Shown here: positions 47,026 to 53,635 of the stretch, piece by piece
How the letters are laid out: each line of letters opens with the position of its first letter
Position numbering within the stretch: position 1 is the first letter of the stretch
Assembly (NCBI GenBank): GCA_003224085.1
Contig: QHYK01000045.1
Span: 1-64,000 of the forward strand
DNA: 64,000 bases
Direction: 5' to 3'
DNA from: Acidobacteriota bacterium
GTDB taxonomy: Bacteria; Acidobacteriota; Terriglobia; Acidiferrales; UBA7541
The notes under the pieces: model-generated
Database searches by the model: none
What the model saw: only the letters and a program-made list of their open reading frames with translations
Told to the model about the DNA's origin: nothing
Translations under genes and position numbers: made by a program

Positions 47026-48228
47026 GTGAGTACGTATAGGAGAGTCTTCTGGATTGTGCTCGATAGCGTCGGAATCGGAGAACTGCCTGACGCCGGCGAC
47101 TATGGCGACGTAGGAAGAAGCACGCTGGGCCACATCGCGGAATCGCGGCCCCTGCAAATCCCGAACCTCATACGGCTCGGACTGGCCAACATCGCCCCGC
47201 TGAAATTCCTCGGTCCCGCGGCAGGTCCTCTAGGAGCATATGGAAAGGGAGCAACGCGTTCTCCTGGAAAGGACACAACCACCGGACATTGGGAGATGGC
47301 CGGAGTATGGCTCGAACAAGCCTTCCCTGTTTACAAGAACGGATTTCCGCGCGAGCTGATTGAGGAATTCGAGAAACATATTGGCAGAAAGACGATTGGC
47401 AACAAGCCCGCTTCGGGAACAGAAGTCATCAAAGAGCTGGGCGAAGAACATGTCCGAAGCGGCAAGCCCATCGTGTATGCGTCGGGCGACAGCGTCTTTC
47501 AAATCGCCGCGCATGAAGAAGTGATTCCCATCACCGAGTTGTATCGCATGTGTGAAATTGCGCGGCGATTGCTGGACGGGCCGCACCGCGTCGGGCGTGT
47601 GATTGCGCGTCCCTTCCTAGGAACTCCCGGCAATTTCGTGCGCACCACACGGCGGCATGACTATGCCGTCGACCCGCCCAAGCCGATGCTCCTGGACGTG
47701 CTTGCCGAGCGCAAAGTGCCGGTCCTTGGCGTGGGGAAGATTCACGACATTTATAACGGCCGCGGCGTTGATGAATACCTCGCCACCCAAGGCAACGCTG
47801 ACGGCATGGAAAGGCTAACCGCTGCGGCGAAAGAGCGAAAAGACGGACTGATTTTCTGCAACCTTGTGGACTTCGATATGCTTTACGGCCACCGCAAGGA
47901 CGTCGAGGGGTTTGCTAAATCGCTCGAGGAATTCGACCACATGCTCGGAGAATTTCTGCCGCTGCTCAGTCTTTCCGACCTGCTGATGATCACCGCGGAC
48001 CACGGTTGCGATCCGGATCCGCGTTGGCCGACGACCGACCACTCGCGCGAATATGTCCCAATCCTCGCCTATTCGCCGGGAAATGGTGCTGGCGTGAATC
48101 TCGGCGTACGCGACACGCTGGCCGATATGGGGCAGACCGTCGCCGAAAATTTCGGCGGCGTCATTCCCCACGGCACCAGCTTCCTCTCGGAGTTGAGAAG
48201 TCAACGAACGAGCGAAGCTGCACGATAG
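47026..48228 (+). CDS. deoB: Phosphopentomutase
   Basis: DeoB converts (deoxy)ribose 1-phosphate to the 5-phosphate in nucleoside salvage. The 400-residue alkaline-phosphatase-fold enzyme has [20 protein letters not shown] (metal Asp), [21 protein letters not shown] (the phospho-threonine region), [20 protein letters not shown] (Asp-His metal site) and [11 protein letters not shown]. The GTG start at 47026 is supported by GAAGG about 14-18 bases before it. It is convergent with tauE, whose 3' end overlaps by 28 bases. Confidence 0.96.
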
Positions 48229-49019
48229 GGATGCACGGTGGCGCGACTCGCGGTGTCGGCTGATTTTGCGAACCGTGCTTTCACACCTGAGGCCACCAGT
48301 TGGAGGCCCGCAAAAAGAGCAAGGACGGCAATAGCCGTCCGAAGTTTTTGCGCCGGAATGCGGCGCGCGAGCAGGCAGCCGAGCAGCACGCCGGGGAGTC
48401 CGCCGAGAAGCAGCGGAAAAAGTACGGCCATGCTGATGGAACCCACCGTCCAGTGAAAGATGCCGCCGATGACGGCGAGCACCAAACCAAACAGCAGGTC
48501 CGTACCGACGACCTGGGAAGGAGTCATCTCCGAGTAATTCAGCAGGAGCACTGTGCCCAACGCGCCGGCTCCGGCAGAAGAGAATCCCGATTCCACGCCG
48601 ATGGGGAAAGCGAGCCAAGGCAGCCAGTGGGAATTCCTGCGGATGAAGTCGGGCTTGCGCACGCGCGGCAGGAAGCTGACCGCCGAGGAGAAAGCCAGCA
48701 AAGCACCGAGAATGACGACCACGGTGGAGTGCTGGCCGCCCGTGGTCACGTAGCGGAGCGCCAAAGTTCCTGTCAGCAGGCCCGGAATGGCGCCGCGCAG
48801 CAGCAGCCAGAAATAGCGCGCATGAATCTGGCGGCTGAAAAGATAAAACGGCGCCGCAACCAGCCGCACTACACCGGCGAATAGAAAGGCAGTGCCGACG
48901 GCCTCGCCGGCTGAAAGTCCGGCGAAAAGAAGAAGGGCCGGCACGGTGAAGCTGCCACCGCCGATGCCGGTAAGGCCGACAGCGAGCGCGATGGCGAATC
49001 CAATGAATAGTTGCGTCAT
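48201..49019 (-). CDS. TauE/SafE-family membrane transporter
   Basis: With the start at 49019 (ATGA overlap with the cysH stop) the protein has 272 residues and about eight membrane segments; it begins [24 protein letters not shown], with the family G-rich first helix, and repeats the pattern in the second half ([21 protein letters not shown]). TauE/SafE proteins move sulfite, sulfoacetate or other sulfur anions, and one in a sulfate-assimilation operon suits export or uptake of a sulfur compound. The 3' end lies inside the 3' end of deoB. Confidence 0.88.
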
Positions 49020-49714
49020 CCGGCACGCTCCGAAAAAGTGTGAATGCCGCACTCCAGTTTTCGCCCGCCCCAGCGGCCGGACCGCGCGTTGCCCGGATCG
49101 GAAGGAAGCGCGGTACAAGGTTCGCAGCCGATGCTGGGATAGCCGGCGTCATAAAGCGGCAGATAGGACAGGCGACGCGCTCCGGTACGTTCCCAGACTT
49201 GCGCCCAAGCCCAATCGGCGAGCGGGCTGACTTTCAGCAGTGCCTTGCCGCTCGGGAGGCGGTGCTCCTCGACCTTCTTGAGATTCGCGCGCGTCGGCGA
49301 TTGTTCGCGCCGCAAGCCGGTGAACCAAACGTCGAACGGCTCCAGGGCCTTCATCAGCGGAGCGACTTTGCGAAGCTGGCAACAAGCCGTCGGGTCCGTT
49401 TGATAGAGCAGCCCGCGTTCTGCCTCTTGTTCGGCGACGGTTTTTTCCGGAAGCACGTTCACCAGGTTTAATTTCCAATCGACGGCAAGACGATCGCGAA
49501 ATTCATACGTCTTCGCGAAGTGATAGCCGGTCTCGAGGAAGAGAACCGGAATCCGCGGAAGACGTTTGCGGAGCAAATCCAGCACAATAATGTCTTCCGC
49601 TTGGAAACTGCACGTGAGGCAGGCCCGCTCCGGCTGCGAACCGTCCAAGACCGCATCGACCAACTGCTCGACAGCCAAAGCTTCAAATTCTTGCTGATTA
49701 AGCGTCAGGCTCAT
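49016..49714 (-). CDS. cysH: Assimilatory APS reductase ([4Fe-4S] type)
   Basis: CysH reduces activated sulfate to sulfite. The 232-residue protein (start 49714, MSLTLNQQEF) has the PP-loop region CSFQAEDIIVLDLL, FLETGYHF, FTGLRREQSPTR and the C-terminal catalytic KLECGIH (Cys222). It also has the cysteine pairs Cys111-Cys112 and Cys197-x2-Cys200, which bind a [4Fe-4S] cluster and mark the forms that use APS directly, not PAPS. It starts 2 bases before cysN ends and overlaps tauE. This choice of substrate explains why a working APS kinase is not required here. Confidence 0.92.
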   Translation of the reverse strand: MSLTLNQQEFEALAVEQLVDAVLDGSQPERACLTCSFQAEDIIVLDLLRKRLPRIPVLFLETGYHFAKTYEFRDRLAVDWKLNLVNVLPEKTVAEQEAERGLLYQTDPTACCQLRKVAPLMKALEPFDVWFTGLRREQSPTRANLKKVEEHRLPSGKALLKVSPLADWAWAQVWERTGARRLSYLPLYDAGYPSIGCEPCTALPSDPGNARSGRWGGRKLECGIHTFSERAG

Positions 49715-49715
49715 T

Positions 49716-51476
49716 TCAAGATTCCCTTCTGGCTGGATCGGACTTGGGCGAAAGACGCAGCTTATCGGCGAAGGCCAACGCGTACTGTGTGACTCGTTTG
49801 TCGGTCCCGGCATTCGGCGTTCCGGTGCTTATGGCGTCCGACAGCCGGAAAATGGCCTCGCTAGGAAGTTCGGCCAGATCTTGTGGACCGAGCGAAGCAT
49901 TTGTGCAGAGAACAAGCAGGCCTGACCCATAAAGCGAACCAAGCAAGGTGCAAAGCATGGCGGGGGCCAGGCTCGACGCGTCAAGGATGACGACTTCAAA
50001 ACCGTTGCGAAAAAGCGCCTGTTCTAATGACTTTGCGAGAGGCCGACGATCCCCAAGCAGAAGGACTCCCGGTTTATGTCCGTGACGCCGCTGCCTCTGT
50101 TCCGCAGTGACTTCTCCAAGCTCGGTCACCAGCGAAGGAAAATGTCCTTCCTTTTGGTTAATGGCCGTCGCCACAATTGTTTCTCGGACCATGCCGGCTC
50201 CGACCGTGGCGTTAGAGACCGGATCAATCAGGATCAGACTGCCTGTGGCGCGGCTTGCGGCATAAGGATCCAGAAAAAGCGGCTGATTGGTTTCGACTTC
50301 CACTTCCGCAATGCCATTCATTTCCAGTTGTTTAGCCGGTTCGTGCTGAAGGGTGTTGACGTTGATGCGGTGGCGAATACGGCGAACGTGCGCCTTCACC
50401 AATCGCGTGGTCTGCTTCAAGAGCAACGTCTTTCCGACTCGCAGCGGGTCGGCGTGAAGCCAGACCACCGTCGCGGAAAAGCTTCGCGATACCGCGGGTT
50501 GATAAGAGGGAGAAACCAGCATGTCGCCGCGGCTGAGGTCAATTTCGTTTTCGAGTTGCACCGTGATGGATTGCGGAGCAAAAGCTTCCTCACAGTCGCC
50601 ATCGAAGTTCACAATAGCTTTGACTCTCGTTTCTTGCCCCGAGGGCAGCGCCACTAACGCATCTCCAGAGCGCAGAGTCCCGCTCGCCAATTGTCCGGCA
50701 AATCCTCGGAACCGGAGATCAGGGCGAATGACGTATTGAATCGGAAATCGCACCGCGTCCAGCGAGCGAGTCTGGCGGAAATCCACGGTTTCGAGGTGGC
50801 CCAAAAGAGTCGGCCCGGAATACCACGGCATGTTCCCGCTGGCGCGGCGAACTACGTTGTCGCCCGCCAGCGCGCTGATCGGAATGCACTGAACGGAAGG
50901 GATCCCCAATCGCGAGGCAAGCGCGAAAAAATCGCGGTGCAAACGCGCGAAAACTTCTTCGCGGTAATCCACGAGATCCATCTTGTTGATGGCCGCGACA
51001 GCGCAGCGAATGCCCAGAAGCGAAGCTATATAGGCATGGCGGTGAGTTTGTGTGAGCAGGCCTTTCGTCGCGTCCACGAGAATAATCGCCAAGTCCGCCG
51101 TAGACGCTCCGGTGGCCATGTTGCGCGTGTACTGTTCGTGGCCCGGCGTGTCGGCGATGATGAACTTGCGACGCGCCGTGCTGAAGTAGCGATACGCCAC
51201 GTCAATGGTAATTCCTTGCTCGCGTTCCGCGCGCAAGCCGTCGGTCAGCAACGAAAAGTCGAAAGAGCCACCCGAGCGATTAATCTTGCTCTTTTGAACC
51301 GAGGCCACGTGATCCTCGTAAACCGCCTTCGCGTCATGCAGCAAGCGCCCGATGAGCGTGGACTTGCCGTCGTCCACGCTACCCGCAGTGGTAAAGCGCA
51401 GCAGGTCCTTCTGCAGGTCTGCTTCGAGAAACGCCGCAAGGCTTTCCGAGCGTTCGGAGGCCTCAAAGGTCAGCAT
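49716..51476 (-). CDS. cysN: Sulfate adenylyltransferase subunit 1 with decayed APS-kinase-like C-terminus
   Basis: CysN is the GTPase that drives CysD to make APS from sulfate and ATP. From the start at 51476 (TGATG with the cysD stop) it has 586 residues: Walker A GSVDDGKST (32-40), EREQGITIDVAY, DTPGHEQYTRNM, NKMDLVDY and the two EF-Tu-like beta domains to about 455. The last 120 residues resemble the start of the CysC domain of CysNC fusions, but the P-loop reads GDRRPLAKS at about 475-483 (expected GLSGAGKST) and DGDNVR-like residues are replaced. It is shorter than a CysC (about 175-200). So the kinase part appears non-functional. Confidence 0.9.
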   Translation of the reverse strand: MLTFEASERSESLAAFLEADLQKDLLRFTTAGSVDDGKSTLIGRLLHDAKAVYEDHVASVQKSKINRSGGSFDFSLLTDGLRAEREQGITIDVAYRYFSTARRKFIIADTPGHEQYTRNMATGASTADLAIILVDATKGLLTQTHRHAYIASLLGIRCAVAAINKMDLVDYREEVFARLHRDFFALASRLGIPSVQCIPISALAGDNVVRRASGNMPWYSGPTLLGHLETVDFRQTRSLDAVRFPIQYVIRPDLRFRGFAGQLASGTLRSGDALVALPSGQETRVKAIVNFDGDCEEAFAPQSITVQLENEIDLSRGDMLVSPSYQPAVSRSFSATVVWLHADPLRVGKTLLLKQTTRLVKAHVRRIRHRINVNTLQHEPAKQLEMNGIAEVEVETNQPLFLDPYAASRATGSLILIDPVSNATVGAGMVRETIVATAINQKEGHFPSLVTELGEVTAEQRQRRHGHKPGVLLLGDRRPLAKSLEQALFRNGFEVVILDASSLAPAMLCTLLGSLYGSGLLVLCTNASLGPQDLAELPSEAIFRLSDAISTGTPNAGTDKRVTQYALAFADKLRLSPKSDPARRES

Positions 51477-52450
51477 CAGAAATAGCCCTCGCGTTTCTTG
51501 AGCTCCATCGATCCTTCCTCGTCGTGATCGATGGCGCGGTTTTCGCGCTCCGAGCGGCGAAACGAAATCATTTCCTCGATGATCTTTGGAACCGTGTCCG
51601 CCTCGGAACGAATGGCGCCGGTGCATGGAACGCAGCCGAGCGACCGCATGCGGCACTTGATCCACTGCACTTTTTCACCTGGCAGCAGTTCGTCAGGCGA
51701 GTAAATCAGTACGATTGAGCCGTTGCGCACCACCGCCTGACGTTCGCGCGCGTAATACAAAGGAACGATGGGGATGTTTTCCTCATGGATGTAGAGCCAG
51801 ACATCCAGTTCGGTCCAATTCGACAGCGGAAATACGCGAATGCTTTCTGATTTTTCGATGCGGGAGTTGAAAAGGTTCCAGAGTTCCGGCCGCTGATTCT
51901 TGGGATCCCACTGCCCGTGCGAATCGCGAAATGAATAAATACGTTCTTTCGCGCGCGATTTTTCTTCGTCGCGACGCGCACCGCCAAAAGCGGCGTTGAA
52001 TCCTCCTGCAGCGAGCGCGTCCAGCAATGCCGCGGTCTTGAGCAGTCCGCAGCACCTTTGCGTGCCCAGAACAAAAGGATTTGCACCCTGTTCGAGCGCT
52101 TCGCGGTTTTGGTGCACGATGAGCTCCGCGCCAATTTCGCCGGTGTAGGAGTCGCGAAACTCGATCATTTCTGGAAATTTGTAGCTGGTGTCGATGTGCA
52201 GCAGCGGAAAAGGGATTTTCCCCGGATAAAAAGCCTTTTGCGCCAGGCGCAGCATCACCGAAGAATCCTTGCCAATGGAATAGAGCATGACGGGGTTGGA
52301 AAACTCCGCGGCCGCTTCGCGAAGGATGTGGATGCTCTCCGCCTCAAGGGATGCGAGATGGTCCAGCCGGCGTTCCAAGCCGGACGAAGGCGCCCCTCCG
52401 CGAACCCCGGGTGTCAGAGTTTCGTCCGCTAGCGGTGCTGCCTGAGTCAT
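51476..52450 (-). CDS. cysD: Sulfate adenylyltransferase subunit 2
   Basis: CysD adenylates sulfate, with CysN, to form APS. The 324-residue PP-loop protein has [20 protein letters not shown] (about 57-76), [43 protein letters not shown] and [15 protein letters not shown], and ends KREGYF as the family does. It is the first gene of cysD-cysN-cysH-tauE, whose joints are all overlaps or gaps of a few bases. A GGGAAGGG lies 13-20 bases before the ATG. A hairpin-plus-T tract 31-70 bases before the start, and a Cys-rich leader peptide before that, point to attenuation. Confidence 0.96.
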
Positions 52451-52480
52451 ATTTCTTGTTTCCCTTCCCGAAAATGCCCC

Positions 52481-52520
52481 AAAAACACAAAACCCACCTG
52501 CCAGGCTTTCTGGCGGTGGG
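52481..52520 (-). terminator. Intrinsic terminator in the cysD leader (attenuator 3:4 hairpin)
   Basis: On the minus strand CCCACC-GCCAG, a short loop (AAAGC) and CTGGC-A-GGTGGG fold into a GC-rich stem of about 11 pairs with one bulge (52493-52520), followed by TTTTGTGTTTTT (52481-52492). It is 30 bases before the cysD ATG, in the right orientation to stop transcription before the operon. Confidence 0.85.
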
Positions 52521-52549
52521 CTTAAACTGCATCGGCTAGATTCTTGTCT

Positions 52550-52651
52550 TTAGACCGCTAGCCCCCCCGCGCCAGAAGACACCCGGACGCAACACATACA
52601 CATACAACAGCCGCTCGTGAACTTCTGGCGAAGATGGCTCGCGTTACTCAC
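52550..52651 (-). CDS. Cysteine-rich leader peptide of the cys operon
   Basis: A 33-codon frame starting with GTG at 52651 and ending TAA at 52550: start MSNASHLRQKFTSG, then five cysteines in seven residues (CCMCMCC, codons 15-21), then VRVSSGAGGLAV. The run uses UGU four times and UGC once. It ends about 100 bases before cysD. The GTG lies 9 bases from the end of a -10 box, so the RNA would start at or within a few bases of it and the frame would be translated as a leaderless or nearly leaderless message. Its role is to sense charged tRNA-Cys; the peptide itself is probably without function. Confidence 0.82.
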   Translation of the reverse strand: MSNASHLRQKFTSGCCMCMCCVRVSSGAGGLAV

Positions 52652-52659
52652 AGCTAAAG

Positions 52660-52689
52660 AGTATAACCTGCATGCCACCTGAGATGCAA
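52660..52689 (-). promoter_or_regulatory. Promoter of the cys leader and operon
   Basis: On the minus strand TTGCAT (52684-52689) and TATACT (52660-52665) are spaced by 18 bases, both close to sigma-70 consensus. The start of transcription, about 7 bases on, falls at 52651-52654, i.e. at the GTG of the leader peptide. Confidence 0.75.
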
Positions 52690-52994
52690 CCCGGCCAAGA
52701 ATCATACTTCTTCTGCATGCTATCGGTTTTTTGCGGGCATGCGCCGCCCGACGGGCGGATGCCGATCGATTTTTGGCGAGCGCGGTTTGGGCGGCGAGCA
52801 GATGATTCCCTTCTTTTCTTGGGTACTTGGCGTCCAACCGTCGCTCTCCAAGCGGAACCGTCCGCTAGAACGGCTTCCCGCGCAATCCCTGCCTTTGAAA
52901 ACTTTTGCCTTGACTTTGCCCTGGCCTCTTCATAACTTTACAAAATTCTAGTAGTGTTTCTGCCCGGAGGGAAAAAGTTCCGGAGGAAAATTCC
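52690..52994. other. Divergent intergenic region with a GC hairpin
   Basis: Between the cys promoter and the TonB relic. A stem CCGCCC-GAC-GGGCGG (about 52748-52762) with outer GGCAT/ATGCC pairing is followed by GATCGATTTTT on the plus strand, terminator-like but with no gene upstream. The plus-strand promoter of the receptor relic (52910-52938) lies at the far end. No gene seen. Confidence 0.45.
52910..52938 (+). promoter_or_regulatory. Promoter of the TonB receptor relic
   Basis: TTGACT (52910-52915), 17 bases, TAACTT (52933-52938). The -35 box is good, the -10 box weaker. It precedes the ATG at 52995 by 56 bases, with GGAGGAAAA (52981-52989) as a strong ribosome site. Confidence 0.5.
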
Positions 52995-53635
52995 ATGAAC
53001 GTACCAGCTCCATCTGCGAGAATTTGGCATTGGTGTGTCGCAAAGGGCCTGCGCGCCACAGCACCAACCGCCGTAGTTTTGGTCTTTGCTGCTACAGCCT
53101 GGGGCCAAGCTACAACCTCGGTTCGCGGCACGATCGCAGACCCCTCCGGCGGTGCGGTGGGCGGTGCCACCGTCACCATCACCAACACCGAATCGCACAT
53201 CGAACGCACCGCGACCACCGGCTCCGACGGGACCTATCAATTCCTTTTGCTTCCTCCGGGCACCTACAAACTCGTTGTCGCGGCGCAGGGATTCCAGCGC
53301 TACGAACAGACTGGTCTGGAGCTGCTGGTCAATACTCCTGCCACGGTGAACGTGCAGTTGAAGGTTGGCGGCGGCAAGGAAACCGTCACTGTGACCGCCG
53401 AAGCTCCCGCGCTCAACATGGTGGACGCCTCCATCGGTAATTCGTTTGACGAAAAGCTAGCGTGCAGTTCCTCTGGCAGGTGTTTAATGTGCCAAACCTC
53501 ACGCGCTTCAACGCCGAGGGCGTAGGCTCATCACTCCTCACCTCTTTGACCCAGGCGCCCACGCATTTCGGCGCTTACACCAGCCTGCTAACGCAACCAC
53601 GCGTCATGCAGTTCTCGCTGCGCTACGAATTCTGA
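52995..53635 (+). pseudogene. TonB-dependent receptor (Oar-like) with a large internal deletion
   Basis: The 5' part codes for a signal peptide (about 1-37, ending AWGQA) and a carboxypeptidase-regulatory-like Ig domain (about 38-125: VRGTIADPSGGAVGGATVTI, GTYKLVVAAQGFQRYEQTG), then the start of the plug (VTVTAEAPALNMVDASIGN). At about 53450 the frame breaks. In another frame VQFLWQVFNVPNLTRFNAEG and the typical last strand QFSLRYEF with its final Phe end at 53635. About 800-900 residues, all of plug and barrel, are missing. Such receptors take up large substrates across the outer membrane; this one cannot work. Confidence 0.85.

Follow-up and report, generated by a model that had tools for sequence, protein, structure and literature searches.

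A probable cysteine-sensing transcription attenuator ahead of the cysDNH-tauE operon of an Acidobacteriota bacterium, with related leaders before other sulfur genes

Results and Discussion

The operon and its leader

The window, by which we mean the whole 64,000-nucleotide stretch of DNA analyzed, carries four sulfur genes on its minus strand: cysD, cysN, cysH, and a gene for a TauE/SafE-family exporter (Table 1). All four scored above the cut-offs of their family models, which bears out the cysDNH-tauE operon that the original prediction had placed downstream of the leader. CysN extends about 80 residues past the part matched by a bifunctional CysN/APS-kinase model (to residue 503 of 586), a model against which it scored 669.3 bits, under the cut-off of 715. 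Nearby VWA genes match TIGR03436, an acidobacterial model, in accord with the phylum given in the original prediction.

Upstream of cysD lie a promoter, a 33-codon GTG frame with a run of cysteine codons, four segments (1 to 4) with alternative pairings (written 1:2, 2:3, and 3:4), and an intrinsic terminator with a T-tract. We found each of these parts where the original prediction had put it, including the cysteine codons between segments 1 and 2. The frame encodes a peptide that includes GCCMCMCCV, and in leader numbering the cysteine codons occupy nt 42 to 62, segment 2 nt 73 to 81, and the stop codon nt 99 to 101. The locus has the main anatomical features of a ribosome-mediated attenuator.

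Table 1. Positions of the operon genes and leader elements in the window
Feature	Position	Strand	Evidence or remarks
-35 hexamer TTGCAT	52684..52689	-	Read in the sequence; TTGC at the same place in relatives
-10 hexamer TATACT	52660..52665	-	Spacer 18 nt; in the Gp2 alignment a TANACT-like box lies 6-8 nt 5' of the start codon of relatives
Leader frame VSNASHLRQKFTSGCCMCMCCVRVSSGAGGLAV, probably leaderless	52550..52651	-	GTG 52651-52649, 33 codons, TAA 52552-52550
Segment 1 CGCCAGAAG	52622..52630	-	Pairs with segment 2 (1:2, 9 bp); pairing holds in 85.2% of cells, 15 leaders
Regulatory Cys codons TGT TGT ATG TGT ATG TGT TGC	52589..52609	-	
Segment 2 CTTCTGGCG	52570..52578	-	Inside the leader frame; partner is segment 1 or segment 3 (2:3, 8 bp plus the inner helix GGCTAG:CTAGCC)
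Inner antiterminator arm GGCTAG	52558..52563	-	Partner 52534-52539; 90.0% of cells paired, 15 leaders
Inner antiterminator arm CTAGCC	52534..52539	-	Partner 52558..52563
Intrinsic terminator	52480..52523	-	Hairpin 52523-52490, -23.0 kcal/mol; T-tract tail TGTGTTTTTG 52489-52480
Segment 3, core CGCCAGAA	within 52506..52515	-	Terminator 5' arm; partner is segment 2 or 4
Segment 4	52493..52505	-	Terminator 3' arm, coordinates from the original prediction; 3:4 covaries
cysD, sulfate adenylyltransferase small subunit	51479..52450	-	TIGR02039, 442.6 bits, cut-off 396.6
cysN, sulfate adenylyltransferase large subunit, C-terminal extension	49719..51476	-	TIGR02034, 588.3 bits, cut-off 336.1
cysH, (P)APS reductase	49019..49720	-	NF002537, 232.0 bits, cut-off 154
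TauE/SafE-family sulfite exporter	48204..49118	-	PF01925, 118.6 bits, cut-off 32.6

The minimum free energy fold of the isolated leader (z = -2.49; 5 of 200 shuffles were at least as stable) combined 1:2 and 3:4 with the inner hairpin. Simple consensus scans of the locus returned no promoter and no terminator, so the promoter (TTGCAT-18-TATACT) rests on conservation and the terminator on folding and covariation.

The leader frame is probably leaderless

The cysteine frame stays open farther 5', for 95 codons from a TTG at 52837. The GTG start was therefore chosen from the promoter spacing and from relatives, whose start codons occupy the corresponding position. This GTG is separated from the -10 box by 8 nt and is thus probably at or beside the 5' end of the transcript.

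We measured the same gap in relatives, taking 119 in-frame ATG or GTG codons within 25 codons before the cysteine cluster, from 64 frames, and any TANNNT upstream. The gap was 7 nt for 24 of the 119 candidate starts and 6 nt for 10; gaps of 9, 10, 11, and 12 nt occurred 9, 9, 6, and 7 times, and each remaining gap from 0 to 30 nt occurred zero to five times. With a TTG-type -35 element demanded, 22 starts had the 7-nt gap, and a box stood at a gap of 5 to 9 nt in 37 leaders versus 5 at 15 to 19 nt and 3 at 20 to 24 nt. The commonest distance from a -10-like box to the start codon is thus 7 nt, and on this ground the leader frame is probably leaderless. This count is the unpicked test; the 50 leaders with a -10 box that are used below were hand-picked for the box and by themselves cannot prove a leaderless start.

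Cysteine codons are kept upstream of cysD in relatives

Relatives of the locus came from two sources: the family of the source organism, in which 43 of 89 genomes had a match and the loci of the best 30 were taken, and 80 contigs labelled Acidobacteria, Terriglobia, Acidiferrales, or with genera such as Edaphobacter and Granulicella (one was labelled Betaproteobacteria). The 111 loci were reduced to 81 distinct ones by removing two with too little upstream DNA (L059 and L027) and those identical in the last 200 nt. A leader was counted when a short frame with three clustered cysteine codons lay no more than 400 nt upstream of cysD.

Such a frame was present in 63 of the 81 distinct cysD leaders versus 3 of 81 on the antisense strand, so the Cys-rich frames that the original prediction proposed to look for before cysD in other Acidobacteriota do occur there, and the codons on which it had staked itself are kept in relatives. 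Dinucleotide shuffles gave a mean of 6.65 per 81 (maximum, 11; 20 rounds); of 2722 stretches taken from other parts of the same loci, 169 (6.2%) had such a frame. Set against the antisense strand, the shuffles, and the other stretches, these counts make a chance origin very unlikely. The cluster was absent within 400 nt in 18 of the 81 leaders, two of which (L032 and L034) have one farther upstream.

In the 33 cysD leaders with a terminator (see below), TGT accounted for 129 of 155 cysteine codons versus 17 of 121 in 25 mechanically picked long ORFs of the window. The median positions in these 33 leaders were nt 36 for the first clustered cysteine codon, nt 93 for the stop codon, and nt 125 for the terminator. 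Within the organism's own genome, the cysteine-codon pattern matched 59 times and the reversed pattern also 59 times (29 + 30 versus 21 + 38), so the pattern by itself is uninformative.

Conservation of the terminator and of the alternative pairings

The last 300 nt before cysD contained a hairpin more stable than -15 kcal/mol and followed by a T-rich tail in 52 of the 81 leaders versus 8 of 81 reverse complements. Among the 50 boxed leaders, 33 had a terminator below -15 kcal/mol after the cysteine frame and 17 had no counted terminator; L080 was removed from the first group by hand, as its hairpin lies inside the frame.

Covariation was compared with 500 shuffles by five measures, of which the number of pairs changed and the number of pair types are the safest against relatedness. 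Fractions in parentheses are shuffles out of 500. Alignment A5 was fitted to a model with 3:4 only, without 2:3. The terminator helix 3:4 had 92.6% of cells paired over the 33 leaders and stood out in all five measures (0/500), with 8 pairs changed on both sides versus 3.1 in the shuffles. For 2:3 with the inner helix, the same leaders had 70.7% of cells paired and 33 double-changed cells versus 21.9 (both 0/500), with 5/500 for the score, 363/500 for pairs changed, and 453/500 for pair types. On the 15 closest leaders no measure stood out for this combined structure, because those leaders are too conserved.

Taken alone, 2:3 on 21 leaders gave 0/500 for cells paired, 16/500 for double-changed cells, and 4/500 for the score, with 371/500 for pairs and 495/500 for types on the safest measures. 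On 68 sequences from several gene contexts, complementarity was kept in 84.0% of cells, so the 2:3 pairing whose loss in relatives would have told against the original prediction persists there. Double-changed cells numbered 35 versus 18.4, these two measures and the score all gave 0/500, and the safest measures gave 17/500 for pairs and 96/500 for types. One pair of the helix is U-A in 32 of the 68 and C-G in 19. Slid versions of 2:3, used as controls on the 68 sequences, were lower in cells paired (at most 57.0%), in double-changed cells (at most 22), and in score; one slid version had more changed pairs (6 versus 5) and one more pair types (15 versus 14). For 1:2, 15 close leaders gave 10 double-changed cells versus 4.8 (0/500, as for cells paired) and 4/500 for the score, with 250/500 for pairs and 403/500 for types. 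The covariation that the original prediction proposed to check was thus found for the terminator on every measure and for 2:3 and 1:2 on cells and score; on the measures safest against relatedness, the signal is clear for 3:4, partial for 2:3, and not seen for 1:2.

In an alignment-free pairing test (fraction of 0.05 or below), 2:3 passed in 20 of the 33 leaders and 1:2 in 12, and three leaders (L043, L047, and L052) failed outright for 2:3. The best support for 2:3 is complementarity kept across differing sequences and gene contexts, together with the threonine-type leaders described below.

Hairpins are many in GC-rich genomes, as in the 8 of 81 on the control strand. Chance, or an ordinary terminator belonging to the upstream gene, is nonetheless extremely unlikely as an account of this locus, since it is contradicted by the cysteine-cluster, start-gap, 2:3, and terminator controls and by the genomes outside the class.

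Proposed mechanism

We consider it highly probable that the leader is a cysteine-codon-sensing, ribosome-mediated transcription attenuator ahead of cysDNH-tauE. The cysteine codons, the terminator, and the complementarity of segments 2 and 3 are all kept in relatives, which supports the trp-type attenuator of the original prediction. Cysteine shortage very probably turns the operon on; stalling, switch, and direction are read here from the anatomy.

With the transcript starting at or beside the leader GTG, a ribosome would load right behind RNA polymerase. When Cys-tRNA is sufficient, it would pass the cysteine codons and the rest of the frame, the freed segment 1 would close on segment 2, and segment 3 would then pair with segment 4 and stop transcription before cysD. 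The same off structure, 1:2 with 3:4, would form if no ribosome loaded. When charged tRNA-Cys is short, the ribosome would halt on the cysteine codons between segments 1 and 2 and hold the two apart; segment 2, with the inner helix GGCTAG:CTAGCC, would pair with segment 3, no terminator would form, and cysDNH-tauE would be transcribed.

Ribosome footprints usually extend some 15 nt to either side. With a ribosome halted on the first cysteine codons, segment 2 would be free yet separated from segment 1; a ribosome at the stop codon would cover the first inner arm, and behind it segments 1 and 2 could come together. In the E. coli trp leader, the off state has the ribosome parked on segment 2. 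Here, with a probably leaderless frame whose stop codon is 3' of segment 2, the formation of 1:2 in the wake of a passing ribosome would account better for the off state.

The same RNA frame precedes other sulfur genes

We built an RNA model (R1) of the part from segment 2 to the T-tract from 21 leaders. With E-values that are rough, R1 matched in 71 of the 89 family genomes at E <= 1e-3 and in 94 of 299 class genomes at E <= 1e-4 (56 in the family and 38 outside it). In 40 genomes outside the class it had no match at E <= 1e-3, which makes R1 class-specific and does not speak for an absence of such switches, as 4 of those 40 carry leaders with a CCCGGG-type terminator.

Five R1 matches at E <= 1e-3 were found in the organism's own genome: the window and matches before a rhodanese, a sulfite reductase, an outer-membrane gene (L244), and an amino-acid kinase (L245). 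A scan of a set of loci from the same genome gave, besides the window's own leader, two boxed cysteine frames with the same segments, one before a rhodanese (L138, found by scanning 30 of the 59 cysteine-pattern loci for a boxed frame and called by its resemblance to L224 and L226, which were scored) and one before a sulfite/nitrite reductase (L188, called by family match). The examined stretches before CysK-type genes (L182 to L187), sulfate permease genes (L192 and L193), and a second NIR/SIR gene (L189 and L190) of this genome held no boxed cysteine frame.

We read 60 further R1 matches, picked largely so as to leave out cysD; they include near-identical leaders and are not independent of one another. 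Cysteine codons were present in 53, of which 52 stand before sulfur or outer-membrane/uptake genes and 1 before an unassigned gene; the other 7 have threonine or threonine/isoleucine codons and precede aspartokinase-type genes. The first 40, all from the family, comprised 16 rhodaneses, 6 sulfite/nitrite reductases, 3 siroheme synthases, 2 ABC substrate-binding proteins (one scored SsuA), 1 TauE, 1 cysH-type gene (called by protein match and likeness of its translation), 4 outer-membrane or porin genes, 1 unassigned gene, and 6 threonine or threonine/isoleucine leaders. The second 20, from outside the family, comprised 11 sulfite reductases (4 scored by Pfam and 7 called by N-terminal likeness), 5 SrpI encapsulins, 1 sulfate-binding protein, 1 TauE, 1 FadL-type gene, and 1 amino-acid kinase with a threonine-rich leader. 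In f2, another family of the class, R1 matched before both sulfite reductase and SrpI genes. On the explanation favored here, the same device would control a regulon of sulfur genes in the class.

Cysteine leaders preceded the gene for the family 2A encapsulin SrpI at five loci, two scored by Pfam or NCBIfam (L277 and L283) and three assigned by N-terminal likeness (L278, L285, and L287), and a cysteine signal for the SrpI nanocompartment is possible. Siroheme, the cofactor of sulfite reductase, is made by siroheme synthase, whose gene follows a putative cysteine attenuator at L243, L258, and L260. R1 also matched before genes for outer-membrane beta-barrel, porin, or FadL-type proteins (L225, L244 at C129:64483, L253, L262, and L276), which might take up sulfur compounds. 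Two of these leaders have frames thin in cysteine, namely L244, with MCC, and L253, with CC plus one. At L242, an R1 match before a rhodanese gene, a stop codon directly precedes the cysteine codons and the frame has no start; either the leader frame is broken here or the assembly is wrong.

Threonine codons before aspartokinase-type genes

The seven leaders with threonine or threonine/isoleucine codons before aspartokinase-type genes were L245, L248, L249, L250, L254, and L255 from the family and L274 from outside it. L245 lies in the organism's own genome (G000:C10:16411-16501) and has a threonine-rich frame, MMSIAKKRITSKSSKSTTSTTTMKKTITASGDGKNS; the other five family leaders are threonine/isoleucine-rich, and L274 is threonine-rich. 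The amino-acid kinase family was scored at five of the six family loci (at L249, aspartate kinase), and L250 was assigned by a leader near-identical to that of L249. In these six leaders, segment 2 encodes ASG-x-G/W, shared with the SSGAG of many cysteine leaders, and the terminator is CCCACCGCC or CCCGCCGCC. Their R1 E-values ranged from 1.2e-8 to 4.8e-7 per genome, and in all six the 2:3 pairing was better than in all 200 mononucleotide shuffles.

The E. coli thrL leader is rich in threonine and isoleucine codons and stands before an aspartokinase gene. The leaders L248 to L250, L254, and L255 are alike in this (L245 in threonine), but the acidobacterial version differs from thrL in having a segment 2 and a terminator that resemble those of the cysteine leaders. 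The simplest reading would be common descent of the cysteine and threonine leaders with an exchange of sensor codons; convergence is the alternative.

These leaders also bear on whether the frame could be accidental to an antiterminator that binds a protein or a ligand, such as a riboswitch. Conservation of the inner helix and the terminator would suit such an element, but we found no covariance-model match to the Rfam 15 families up to E = 1 in 52100-53000, the cysteine cluster is common to leaders that differ in other sequence, and threonine or threonine/isoleucine codons replace cysteine where the gene is aspartokinase-type. We regard this explanation as very unlikely and keep to a ribosome that reads the codons.

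Relation to known attenuators

Ribosome-mediated attenuators of the trp, his, thr, and leu type are known in Proteobacteria. The leaders described here share with them codons for the pathway product, alternative pairings, and an intrinsic terminator. They differ in sensing cysteine, in being probably leaderless, in placing the regulatory codons between segments 1 and 2 and the stop codon after segment 2, in the conserved inner helix between segments 2 and 3, and in serving many genes with one RNA frame. Attenuators of trp are described for Corynebacterium and Streptomyces in the accessible part of PMC1262725.

Cysteine control through a uORF is not new as such, since mycobacterial uORFs and a cysS leader of Rhodobacterales precede it. 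Leaderless Cys-rich uORFs are reported from mycobacteria, one of them before the sulfurtransferase gene cysA2 (available text of PMC4633059). Canestrari 2020 is cited, in the portions available of PMC13236596 and PMC9031893, as describing attenuation that acts on translation. The acidobacterial leaders resemble these uORFs in having runs of cysteine codons before cys genes and a sulfurtransferase gene, and probably in being leaderless, whereas the mycobacterial uORFs are reported without conserved terminator hairpins in the accessible part of PMC1262725 and are cited as acting on translation; here there are a terminator and a predicted antiterminator pairing that is conserved.

On the mycobacterial precedent, the polycysteine frame could gate ribosome access to cysD, with the hairpin incidental. 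The leaderless polycysteine uORFs cited as acting on translation (PMC13236596 and PMC9031893, in the same portions) favor this, but no part of the leader is better conserved or covaries better than the terminator, segment 2 is complementary to a terminator arm across many leaders, and the same RNA stands before unrelated genes. We thus consider translation attenuation improbable here and transcription attenuation the better account.

The element uORFC-8-2 is a predicted cysteine attenuator with an intrinsic terminator before cysS in Rhodobacterales (PMC8632094, accessible part), and the leaders described here are likewise read as cysteine-codon transcription attenuators with such terminators. 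By its description in that part, uORFC-8-2 is set apart by its gene, cysteinyl-tRNA synthetase, by two mostly UGC codons, and by its place in Alphaproteobacteria, whereas here the genes serve biosynthesis and uptake, the runs are dominated by TGT, and the frames are probably leaderless. In the available text of PMC2965389, almost none of the predicted acidobacterial attenuators has an associated function, and the accessible portions of PMC8079986 and PMC11995493 do not mention a cysteine attenuator. Titles and abstracts searched, a scope with most subscription papers and bioRxiv outside it, described no cysteine attenuator in Acidobacteriota. The original prediction's view that no case is described in this phylum therefore holds within that scope, and the kind of control itself was already known from mycobacteria and Rhodobacterales.

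The leaders would make up a sulfur-assimilation regulon under cysteine control by transcription attenuation, in a soil phylum that is widespread yet little studied, and they offer a testable signal for sulfur genes of unknown control, including SrpI encapsulin operons. Since sensor codons have apparently been exchanged on one RNA frame, attenuator evolution would become directly testable. R1 would make it possible to link uncharacterized genes under leader control to the supply of cysteine or of threonine by sequence.

Other classes and cysD leaders without a terminator

Among 40 more cysD loci, 38 from outside the class and 2 from another family of it, 7 had a cysteine frame followed by a CCCGGG-type terminator (L142, L145, L146, L148, L149, L150, and L174), and 2:3 passed in 2 of these 7. 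The same 40 included 3 loci lacking the cysD N terminus, 2 with almost no upstream DNA, and 6 more with Cys-rich frames that are not leader-like.

Records labelled Acidobacteriaceae or its genera, which we take to belong to that family, supplied 14 of the 17 boxed cysD leaders for which no terminator was counted. Over the 80 nt that follow the uORF stop codon, C exceeded G by at least 10 in 16 of the 17, versus 16% of control windows and none of the 33 leaders with a terminator. Such an excess of C after the stop codon suits Rho-dependent control and thereby suggests that this group may be under Rho-dependent attenuation. Mycobacterial cys leader peptides likewise lack obvious terminators, and Rho-dependent attenuation by a polycysteine frame has been suggested for them (PMC1262725, accessible part). 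As an explanation of the window's own leader, Rho-dependent attenuation draws on the 16 of 17, yet the leaders with a terminator do not have the C excess, and we hold it to be highly unlikely at this locus, where an intrinsic terminator is the favored output.

A wider reading takes all these leaders as a network of distributed, regulator-free cysteine attenuators through which Acidobacteriota would run sulfur assimilation. On this reading, one RNA frame, made of segment 2, the inner helix, and the terminator and read by ribosomes on leaderless leader peptides, would have been copied before at least nine sulfur-linked kinds of gene (cysD, cysH, rhodanese, sulfite reductase, siroheme synthase, tauE, ssuA, sulfate-binding protein, and SrpI), with sensor codons swapped between cysteine and threonine/isoleucine where another pathway is served, and with Rho-type output instead of the intrinsic terminator in many Acidobacteriaceae cysD leaders. 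We regard this reading as tentative, its chances close to balanced and tilted slightly toward doubt.

A polycysteine frame without a counted terminator, followed by C-rich, G-poor sequence after its stop codon, was seen in L071, L075 to L078, L080, L081, L083 to L085, L094, L096, L099, L101, L106, and L110. A wider scan scored a hairpin in 3 of the 17 terminator-less leaders, L077, L078, and L080.
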